Assembly: GCA_937980645.1 (NCBI GenBank)
Contig: CALJPQ010000022.1
Span: forward strand, 62,001 to 126,000
Direction: 5' to 3'
DNA from: an uncultured Saprospiraceae bacterium
GTDB taxonomy: Bacteria > Bacteroidota > Bacteroidia > Chitinophagales > Saprospiraceae
DNA: 64,000 bases
A program made the translations under genes and the position numbers. Below the pieces are notes generated by a model. The model saw nothing but the letters and a program-made list of their open reading frames with translations, searched no databases and had not been told where the DNA came from. This document shows positions 48,168 through 51,209 of this stretch, in pieces; the first letter of the stretch is position 1; each line of letters begins with the position of its first letter.

Positions 48168-51100
48168 ATGACGCTTTTTACTCCCTTCCGCAGCCTTGCC
48201 CTGACTGCCATCCTCTGCACCGTTTCCTATTGCTTACCCGCCCAGGATTGTTCCGCTCTCATCAAGGAGAACAAGAAAGTGGCAGGTGTCCAAATTGTTC
48301 GTACCGACAACGTTACCGTTGTGGTGCGCGGCAGCTACAATTACAGCATATCTTTTATCGCAGATGACAAGGGCATTTATGCCCGCGTAACCTCCACGGG
48401 CGGTACCGAGTTGAATCAGGACGACCAGGTGGTTTTTGTGGACTTCTCCGGCAAAGAGCGCGTTTACAAATTCACGTCGTTGGGCGAGGTCGTTACCGGC
48501 AGCGTTCCGACGCATCGAAATAACCTTCGCTTAGACCTGGATGCCGTACGTTGGTTGGCCAGTACCACCATTACCGACATCCATTTCATCAACTTTGTCG
48601 AGCGCCAGAAGTACAAGTTTACCGTAAACCCCAACCGCCAGAGCGAATTTCGCAACCTGTGCGTGTGTTTCCACAACGCCCTCGAAGAAGGCGCAGTAAA
48701 AGACACCCCGGGCGCAGAAATTGAGCGCAAATCGAGCAGTACCTCCCCCAGCGCCAGCACACCGTCCGGCAGCGGTAGTGGCGCAGCATCGGGCAAACCC
48801 GCTACCGGCAGTACGCCCACTACCGGCACACGCCCTGCCTCCTCCAACGCGCCAGCCAGCGACGAGGAACTGGTTAGTCTGCGGCGCGATCTGGAAAAAA
48901 CCAAAGAGGCCGTTCGGGCCGAAATAAAGGCCGAACGCGAACGCGCCGACGCCATCAAGATGCAGATCCAGCAAGAAGTAGCCGCTGCCCGCGAAGCCGC
49001 CAACCAGAAAAAACTGGAATACGCCAACGAGGTGTTGGAAGCCCGCAAAGCCAGCTTGGCCGAAATCGAAAAAGCCCGCGCCGAAGCCCAGGCCGCTATC
49101 GCTGAAAGCCGCCTGCGCGCCGACTCCATCACCGCGCGCCTCCAAATGAACGTCGAGGAAGAGCGCCGAAAGGCAGCCGAAGAAATCCAGAAAGCCCGAC
49201 TGACCGCTGCCGAAGAGGTGAAGAAAGCCCGCGAAAGCGCTGCCGCCGAAATCGCCCGCATCAAAGAACGCCTCGAGCAGTCGAAACTGCAATACAGCGA
49301 CGAAATTGCCACAGCACGGGCCAACGCAGAAGACGAGATACGCCGCATCCGCGAAGAAAATGCCCGCGCTATCGCCGAAGCCCGCCAGCGGGCCGTGCAG
49401 GAAAAAGAAAAAACTGCCGGCGATGTAGAAGAAGCCAAACGCACTGCTGCCGACGAAATCCTCAAAATCCGCGAAGAAGCGGCCAATGAGGTGGCCCGCA
49501 CCCGCGAAAATGCTGTGCTCGAAAAGCAGCGTATTGCCAACGAGGTCTCCGAAGCGCGCCGCAAGGCAGCCCAGGAGAAGGCCCTGCTGGAGCAGAACAG
49601 CGCCTCCGAACTGGCCGACTTGCGCGAGAGCGTGGCCAAACAAAAAGAAGCCAGCGCACTGGAAGTGGGCGAAGCCAAAAAACGCGCCGCCGACGAAATA
49701 GAGCGCATCCGCCGCGAAGTGCAACTCTACCGCGAACAGGCCGAAATAGAGAAGTCTAATATCGCCAAAGAAGTGGCCGAAAACCGCCAGCGCGCCGCTC
49801 AGAACGTCCAGCAGATCCAGGAAGAAGCCAACAAGGCCATCGTCGAAGCGCAAAAACGCGCCCAGCAACAGCGCGACTCCATCACTGCCACCGTACAGAT
49901 GGCCCGCCAGCGCGCCGCAGAGGAAATCGCCAAAATTCAAGAGGAGACCAACAAGACCCTGGCTGCCATCAAGGAGAAGGAAGCGCGCATCAAGCAAGAG
50001 AGCGCCGAAGAGGTGCAACGCGCCCGCGAGCGCGCCGCCCAAGAGGTGGCCAAGGCCCAGGAGGAAGCACGCGCCCGCGTGCAAGCGGCCAATGCCAATG
50101 CCGACGAAGCCCAGCGTAAATACGCCGAAGAAATCGGCGCGGCCAAACAGACGGCCGACCAAAAGCTGCAGCAAATTCAGCAAGAAGCCGCTGCCGCCGT
50201 GGCAGAGGCGCGTCGCAAGCAGCAGGAGACCAGTCAGGCCTCAGCGCAAGAAGTGCAGTCGGCTCGCGAACGTGCCGCCGCCGAGATTGCCGCTGCCCGC
50301 GAGCGCGCGGCCCAAGAAGTTGCCGCCGCCCGTGAGGCTGCCGTGCGCGCCCAGCAAGAGTCGGCCAATGTCGTGGCCGAAGCCAAACGTCAGAGCGCCC
50401 AGGCCATCGCAGCCATCCGCAGCGCCGAAGCCGACAGCATCCGCATCGCCCGCGAGCGTGCCGCCGAAGAGCGCCAGCGCTTAGCCGCCGAACTGGCCAG
50501 CGCCCGCGAGCGCGCCGCTCAGGAAATTGCCGCCGCCAACCAGCAGGCCGCCGAAGAAACAAAGACCGCCCGCGAAAACGCTGCTCGCGCTCGTCAGGAG
50601 AGCGCCGAAGCCGTCGCTAAAGCGCGCGAAGAAGCCGCCGCCGAAGTGGCCAGAGCTAAAGAAGGCGCCGCTCGTGAGGTAGCCGCCGCCAAGCAGCAGG
50701 CCGTGGAAGCCGTCGCCCAGGCCCGCCGCGAAGCCGAAGAGCGCAAAGCCGCCCTGGCCCGCGAGGTCAGCGAAGCCCAGGAGCGCGCCCGCCGCGAAAT
50801 GGAAGAGGCCCGAAACCAGGCCGCCCAGGAGGTGGCTAACGCCCGCAAAGAGGCCGAAAACAAACGCCGGCAGTACGCCAACGAAGTAGAAGAGGCCCGC
50901 AAACGCGCCGCCGAAGAAGCCGCTCAGGCCCAAAAAGAAGCCGCCCAAGCCGTGCAGACTGCCCGCCAGGAAAGCGCCGCCGAAATCGCCCGTGTGCGTG
51001 CTGAAGTCGGCGAAAAAATCCGGGAAGAACAGCAAAAAATCGGGCAAAAACAGCAAGAGCTCATCCAGAAGCAACAAGAAGTGGAGCGCGCCCAACAACA

Positions 51101-51209
51101 ACTGCAGGCCCTCCAGGCCGACATCCAACGCGCCCAGGCCGAGTTGCAGCGCCTCCAGGAAGAAGCCCGCAAACAGCGCACCTCTTCCGGAGGAGGCAAT
51201 AATCGCTAA
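48168..51209 (+). CDS. Giant secreted coiled-coil protein with 40-residue (11+11+18) superrepeat
   Basis: 1013 residues. A signal peptide (about 1-25), a beta-rich N-terminal domain (about 27-180, DCSALIKENKKVAGVQIVR to FHNALEEG), a Ser/Gly/Pro/Thr linker (188-231), then a continuous Ala/Glu/Arg-rich helix to about 1000 and a short SSGGGNNR tail. The helix is divided into 11-residue units such as AAEEIAKIQEE and 18-residue units such as AAEERQRLAAELASARER, arranged as 11+11+18. Of 15 consecutive groups from about residue 282, twelve are exactly 40 residues, two are 51 and one is 36. Such hendecads favour straight or right-handed coiled coils. No enzyme motif is seen. It could be a long periplasmic or surface rod. 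Large minus-strand frames opposite it are artefacts of the low-complexity sequence. Confidence 0.85.
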   Translation: MTLFTPFRSLALTAILCTVSYCLPAQDCSALIKENKKVAGVQIVRTDNVTVVVRGSYNYSISFIADDKGIYARVTSTGGTELNQDDQVVFVDFSGKERVYKFTSLGEVVTGSVPTHRNNLRLDLDAVRWLASTTITDIHFINFVERQKYKFTVNPNRQSEFRNLCVCFHNALEEGAVKDTPGAEIERKSSSTSPSASTPSGSGSGAASGKPATGSTPTTGTRPASSNAPASDEELVSLRRDLEKTKEAVRAEIKAERERADAIKMQIQQEVAAAREAANQKKLEYANEVLEARKASLAEIEKARAEAQAAIAESRLRADSITARLQMNVEEERRKAAEEIQKARLTAAEEVKKARESAAAEIARIKERLEQSKLQYSDEIATARANAEDEIRRIREENARAIAEARQRAVQEKEKTAGDVEEAKRTAADEILKIREEAANEVARTRENAVLEKQRIANEVSEARRKAAQEKALLEQNSASELADLRESVAKQKEASALEVGEAKKRAADEIERIRREVQLYREQAEIEKSNIAKEVAENRQRAAQNVQQIQEEANKAIVEAQKRAQQQRDSITATVQMARQRAAEEIAKIQEETNKTLAAIKEKEARIKQESAEEVQRARERAAQEVAKAQEEARARVQAANANADEAQRKYAEEIGAAKQTADQKLQQIQQEAAAAVAEARRKQQETSQASAQEVQSARERAAAEIAAARERAAQEVAAAREAAVRAQQESANVVAEAKRQSAQAIAAIRSAEADSIRIARERAAEERQRLAAELASARERAAQEIAAANQQAAEETKTARENAARARQESAEAVAKAREEAAAEVARAKEGAAREVAAAKQQAVEAVAQARREAEERKAALAREVSEAQERARREMEEARNQAAQEVANARKEAENKRRQYANEVEEARKRAAEEAAQAQKEAAQAVQTARQESAAEIARVRAEVGEKIREEQQKIGQKQQELIQKQQEVERAQQQLQALQADIQRAQAELQRLQEEARKQRTSSGGGNNR

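Follow-up and report, generated by a model that had tools for sequence, protein, structure and literature searches.

What kind of protein is encoded by the open reading frame at 48168-51209 (plus strand, ATG start, 1013 amino acids) of the window, a stretch of 64,000 nucleotides from an uncultured Saprospiraceae bacterium, and what might its very long helical part be for? The gene is present as a single copy per genome and its family is unnamed. An earlier note on this DNA had read the protein as a secreted rod in which two units of 11 residues and one of 18 make up a 40-residue superrepeat. We therefore examined the repeat, its conservation, the remaining parts of the protein and the known systems that resemble it. 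The layout is given in Table 1.

Table 1. Coordinates of the protein parts in the window and of the related fusion genes at other loci
Feature	Coordinates	Strand	Basis or remark
Signal peptide, residues 1-25	48168..48242	+	predicted signal-peptidase-I cleavage LPA↓QDC, non-lipobox
Head (mature residues 1-150), a beta sandwich with two helices	48243..48692	+	AlphaFold2, family alignment
Ser/Thr/Gly/Pro-rich variable linker, residues ~176-230	48693..48857	+	family alignment; model pLDDT about 30-40
Rod, residues ~232-930, 40-residue superrepeat (heptad and 3 hendecads)	48861..50957	+	local period 3.62-3.65 throughout
Unit of 36 residues (480-515) with the neighbouring indel hot spot near residue 525 (base ~49742)	49605..49748	+	
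51-residue unit, residues 836-886 (40+11), holding second indel place at ~863	50673..50825	+	
C-terminal coil, residues 931-1013, variable length, polar tail	50958..51206	+	heptad period ~3.5
Head-TPR-CHAT gene	L147:4852-8784	-	
Head-TPR-CHAT gene	L182:1356-6656	-	
Head-TPR-CHAT gene	L183:1708-4605	-	
Head-TPR-CHAT gene	L184:1566-4415	+	
Head-TPR-CHAT gene	L185:1597-4443	-	

The 40-residue superrepeat

Residues 282-920 were compared with themselves at increasing lags, 500 composition shuffles serving as the null. Lag 40 gave the top signal by identity (z=13.6) as well as by BLOSUM62 (z=15.6). It was followed, by identity, by lags 80 (z=11.2), 91 (z=10.2), 120 (z=8.8) and 51 (z=8.2), while lags 11, 18 and 29 reached 7.5, 7.1 and 6.9, and lag 7 merely 1.0. 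The DNA correlates with itself at lag 120 (z=9.2, with shuffled codons as the null), so that a signal is present at all the lags singled out beforehand (11, 18, 29 and 40 in the protein, 120 in the DNA), with 40 the strongest in the protein. Despite the signal at lag 120, no tandem DNA repeat of 120-base length is found in the rod gene, and the repeats are therefore old. A parse by EM/dynamic programming, blind to the boundaries in the earlier note, placed the unit starts at residues 233, 269, 320, 360, 400, 440, 480, 516, 556 and so on to 836, 887 and 927, that is, with spacings of 36, 51, 40 (four times), 36, 40 (eight times), 51 and 40. From residue 269 to 887 these are the same 15 groups that had been counted before (twelve of 40 residues, two of 51 and one of 36). 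When the sub-blocks (11, 7, 11, 11) were shuffled within units, the best of 2000 nulls scored 1.275 at lag 40 and their mean was 0.854, against an observed score of 1.518 (z=4.4). The identity of each 11-mer slot contributes modestly (z=2.4); the periodic feature is chiefly where the heptad falls.

In a profile built over the family, the core of the 40-residue unit occupies positions 3, 6, 10, 13/14, 17, 21, 24, 28, 32, 35 and 39, of which 3, 21 and 32 are filled by aliphatic residues at 87-94%. The spacings between them (3,4,3,4,4,3,4,4,3,4,4) are those of one heptad and three hendecads. By the same core spacing 40 is 7+11+11+11, 36 is 7+11+11+7, and 51 is 40+11, or 7+4x11. Hence the superrepeat of 40 residues read from the 11+11+18 order stands, and its 18-residue unit is better taken as a hendecad plus a heptad (11+7). 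Hydrophobic, Glu and acidic periodicities each peak at 3.634 (hydrophobic power 46), Ala makes up 22% of the rod, and the period stays at 3.62-3.65 in every 90-residue segment of it. The great length proposed for the coil is likewise supported. In the last ~80 residues the period is 3.52 and ordinary leucine heptads are present; the final ~75 residues switch to a normal, left-handed heptad coil.

Eleven core positions per 40 residues correspond to 3.636 residues per turn. The value for an undistorted helix is 3.63, that for hendecads 3.667 (PMC9858780). Since 3.636 almost equals the undistorted value, the rod should be nearly straight; of the "straight or right-handed" coil suggested at 40/11, the first term holds and right-handedness is not needed. 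At 0.15 nm per residue the rod, with its 699 residues, would be about 105 nm long; for the whole helix the figure is about 116 nm. The protein is not an SAH (a seam-less charged helix), as a hydrophobic seam is present with a period of 3.634. The straight hydrophobic stripe and the Ala/Glu/Lys-rich 11-mers could also belong to an amphipathic helix lying on a membrane, or to a LEA-like protectant that folds on drying. This seems very unlikely, because the seam is narrow and made of single aliphatic residues with charged flanks, the register is fixed with a heptad in every 40 residues, invariant residues occur, a heptad zipper stands at the end, and no LEA family matches in Pfam at E<=1.

Conservation, length and distribution

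Across the 24 members of the genus the 699 rod residues align gap-free, variation being confined to the linker and the last ~80 residues. Outside the genus, lag 40 ranked first or second in 32 of 32 rods from 27 other genera, so the 40-residue spacing is kept in all homologues tested. Lag 40 is thus significant and the spacing in homologues is not random, the two points on which the earlier note had staked its superrepeat. Rod lengths were compared in 55 proteins, with the very divergent outlier L146 set aside. Eight lengths were found (688, 692, 699, 703, 710, 721, 747 and 750), and every net difference (-11, -7, +4, +11, +22, +48 and +51) can be written as a sum of 11s and 7s. Nearly all changes lie at two places, one at ~525 beside the 36-residue unit, which is the main site of rod-length change between genera, and one at ~863 inside the 51-residue unit.

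These two places might be taken for the turns of a single chain folded back as an antiparallel bundle, particularly as the full-length AlphaFold2 model also interrupts the helix twice. However, that single-chain model is weak (pLDDT 66, pTM 0.29) and informative only as "helical", and its two interruptions are of low confidence and lie away from the indel places. Furthermore, the inserts conserve phase, and because they are hendecad-like and free of Pro the helix should run through them without a break. A folded-back chain is accordingly judged highly improbable.

The sequence of the rod is conserved along with its length. Between genera, units at the same position are 42% identical and different units 28%, which means that the units had acquired their individual identities by the time the family diverged. 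Mean pairwise identity between genera is 50% for the rod core, 37% for the non-core rod and 40% for the head, and dN/dS of the rod is 0.02-0.04 between close species, similar to that of the head. The rods contain almost no Pro and no Cys or Trp, except one Trp in L146. A simple possibility is that the rod is a passive spacer, in which length and helix phase alone matter and the surface is free to change. The quantised length changes and the long gap-free stretches would agree with this, and length-conserved coiled coils are often spacers, yet spacers diverge in sequence (PMC5082667). The rod, constrained as strongly as the head, does not, its units keep their individual identity, and even its non-core positions have the 37% identity given above. 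Such constraint argues for contacts along the rod; a passive spacer seems unlikely, and is less probable than a strut or scaffold that makes contacts throughout its length.

A search with the head found one copy in 24 of 41 near relatives, all 24 of one genus; order-wide, 60 of 398 genomes were positive, all within one family. A wider head profile detected the gene in 150 of 298 Saprospiraceae genomes (66 of 112 genera) and, in searches of 395 genomes from the class and 395 from the phylum, in none outside the family. A rod-only profile, which scores a true orthologue at E about 1e-213 and finds a single locus in the window's genome, produced no match in head-negative genera and no generic coiled-coil matches. 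Because it finds nothing there, the absence of the gene from about half of Saprospiraceae genera is real, and the rod protein is not essential to the family. One "absence" within the genus is a contig break (G018). Homologous open frames nearly always have about 890-1,080 codons, the shorter ones probably lying at contig ends. A copy of the gene with 72% identity (L054) lies on a contig deposited under Thermoanaerobaculia (Acidobacteriota); that contig is probably mis-binned. The plasmid collection gave no match.

Leader, head and neighbouring genes

The leader has Arg-8 and a hydrophobic stretch, LALTAILCTVSYC, followed by A-Q-D-C, as read from the sequence. In homologues it is also hydrophobic and ends in ...A↓Q(D/N)C; cleavage at A↓QDC is typical for signal peptidase I of Bacteroidota. 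The claimed export signal is thus supported by the leader, by its predicted cleavage and by its retention in homologues. Inspection of the sequence revealed no hydrophobic segment beyond the leader. The rod protein has no Pfam match at E<=1, and thus no LEA, DivIVA, SLH or barrel-anchor match, and no NCBIfam match at E<=1, T9SS sorting domain included. No PHROG family was found for the protein or its head, and a PDB sequence search with head and full-length profiles gave nothing significant. N-terminal of the rod, the linker is the sole part that varies in length in the alignment.

The beta-rich head of the earlier note corresponds to a confident AlphaFold2 prediction from 41 homologues (mean pLDDT 92, pTM 0.86), a beta sandwich with two helices. 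Residues C3, R29, Y34, D61, F77, N93 and C142 are invariant in the family alignment A3, and the Cys residues at mature positions 3 and 142 probably form a disulfide. The head belongs to no Pfam or NCBIfam family, and Foldseek with its model found nothing at E<=0.001. VIA-align superimposed it on IalB (3dtd) over 132 residues with Z 7.6 and rmsd 4.7, a Z range that is common by the tool's own account. We regard the head as a new exported domain in Saprospiraceae.

The head domain occurs in further genes as well, where one to about four copies stand before TPR and CHAT regions, in two Saprospiraceae genera (Table 1). The CHAT (caspase-like) region was recognised by Pfam in the protein P0002 (E 3e-57) and by eye in the other fusions. 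P0002 has a leader and, at its C-terminus, a hydrophobic (TM) segment followed by KRK; leader and TM segment together would place its head in the periplasm. The fusions possibly represent an exported CHAT system with a sensor or binding domain. Second head copies with in-frame stops were seen at G378:C91:34688-35140 and G951:C492:3587-4045, and are apparently decaying duplicates.

Comparison of neighbourhoods across loci gave no gene neighbour common to the whole rod-gene family. Same-genus loci have folE (16 loci) and a 6-pyruvoyl-tetrahydropterin-synthase-like gene nearby, while pyrR- and pyrB-like genes lie upstream on the same strand at about 15 loci of other genera (among L116-L148), all these genes being named by eye. 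They look like housekeeping neighbours rather than partners. The rod gene has shifted relative to its neighbours between genera. The antisense frames at 48464-49708 (minus strand, 414 aa) and 48531-50183 (minus strand, 550 aa) are not genes. They are mirror frames, open because of the Ala/Glu/Arg codon bias of the rod, and such frames are likewise open opposite the homologues.

Precedents and possible role

Scy of Streptomyces is said to have a hendecad-based superrepeat of 51 residues, reportedly described by Walshaw et al. in 2010. This is one hendecad over 40, and the rod protein itself holds two 51-residue units. The opinion that no protein was known with this 40-residue order was therefore half right. 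A search of open-access papers found no 40-residue coiled-coil repeat, while Scy/FilP are built in the same way, with a unit longer by one hendecad. Scy and FilP are DivIVA-like filament proteins that form dimers with Ala-rich hendecad cores (PMC9858780), and the rod protein is likewise a very long Ala-rich hendecad coil with a hendecad-based superrepeat. In contrast, they are cytoplasmic proteins of Actinomycetota with a DivIVA-like N-terminus, whereas the rod protein is an exported protein of Saprospiraceae with a beta-sandwich head and a 40-residue unit. DivIVA (PF05103) has no match in the window's genome and none in the rod protein (Pfam, E<=1). The missing motif and the export signal exclude membership in the Scy/FilP group, which, compared by description, is the closest precedent in construction.

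Omp-alpha of Thermotoga maritima, a periplasmic coiled-coil spacer of ~50 nm (PMC5082667) with reported undecad-type core layers (PMC6191539), is also an exported, rod-like envelope spacer. However, it is an outer-membrane protein, half as long, with no sequence relation to the rod protein found, and anchors of its type (SLH domain, membrane or barrel) are absent from the latter, judged by Pfam and by hydrophobic segments. Giantin, ROCK2 and Ndc80 are long spacer or ruler coils in which length is conserved while sequence drifts (PMC5082667). The ROCK2 coil, at 107 nm, is about the size of the rod, but all three are eukaryotic heptad coils, and in the rod the sequence is also constrained. Tetrabrachion of Staphylothermus, a tetrameric surface-layer protein of archaea, has a right-handed 11-residue coiled coil that forms an extracytoplasmic rod ~70 nm long. 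Its hendecads are pure (3.667), whereas the rod protein inserts a heptad every 40 residues. Taken together, these comparisons assign the protein to a family that is new among the long non-heptad coiled-coil rods, as is the length of its superrepeat.

Tetrabrachion projects a protease and trimeric adhesins project their heads, and on these models the rod might leave the cell as an extracellular fibre or adhesin and hold its head ~100 nm from the surface. The leader peptide, the globular head with its flexible linker, and the rod's extreme length would all suit such a fibre, and a conserved length fits a stalk. We consider it doubtful, since Pfam, NCBIfam and the sequence show no surface anchor or signal for export across the outer membrane, no T9SS domain, lipobox or C-terminal barrel, and since the head adjoins the leader at the N-terminus while the C-terminus is a polar tail.

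Preferably, and with a probability of about 0.5, the protein is an exported envelope protein whose disulfide-bonded head, flexible linker and nearly unsupercoiled rod of ~105 nm serve as a strut or scaffold whose length is fixed. Export signal, predicted head fold, core pattern, heptad end, phase-preserving length steps and purifying selection are the points that appear from sequence. By analogy with Scy/FilP, two chains may form a parallel homodimer, in which a heptad every 40 residues would lower the average period to 3.636 from the 3.667 of hendecads and so keep the rod straight, and the C-terminal heptad zipper would close it. The heads may hold one envelope partner, and the individually conserved units might contact partners or other rods laterally in a register-specific way. 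The lack of an outer-membrane, T9SS or lipid anchor suggests a periplasmic location. As 105 nm exceeds the ordinary depth of the periplasm, the rod must either run tangentially or extend out of the cell; in the strut or scaffold favoured here it would lie in the periplasm along the surface. The "purpose-built spacer" of the earlier note is plausible in this sense.

More tentatively, the protein could form a periplasmic filament or ruler specific to Saprospiraceae, in which unsupercoiled 105-nm rods assemble laterally and the units are successive docking sites. The 40/11 repeat would then keep both straightness and a fixed register. Such an assembly, if real, would amount to an extracytoplasmic skeleton resembling intermediate filaments. 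The family offers a natural, family-wide test case of the way in which straightness is tuned in a coiled coil, by one heptad per three hendecads, with a rod length that evolves solely in phase-preserving steps. Saprospiraceae are abundant in activated sludge and in the sea, and their envelope has been little studied; to it are now added a strongly conserved, previously uncharacterised protein and a new exported domain.
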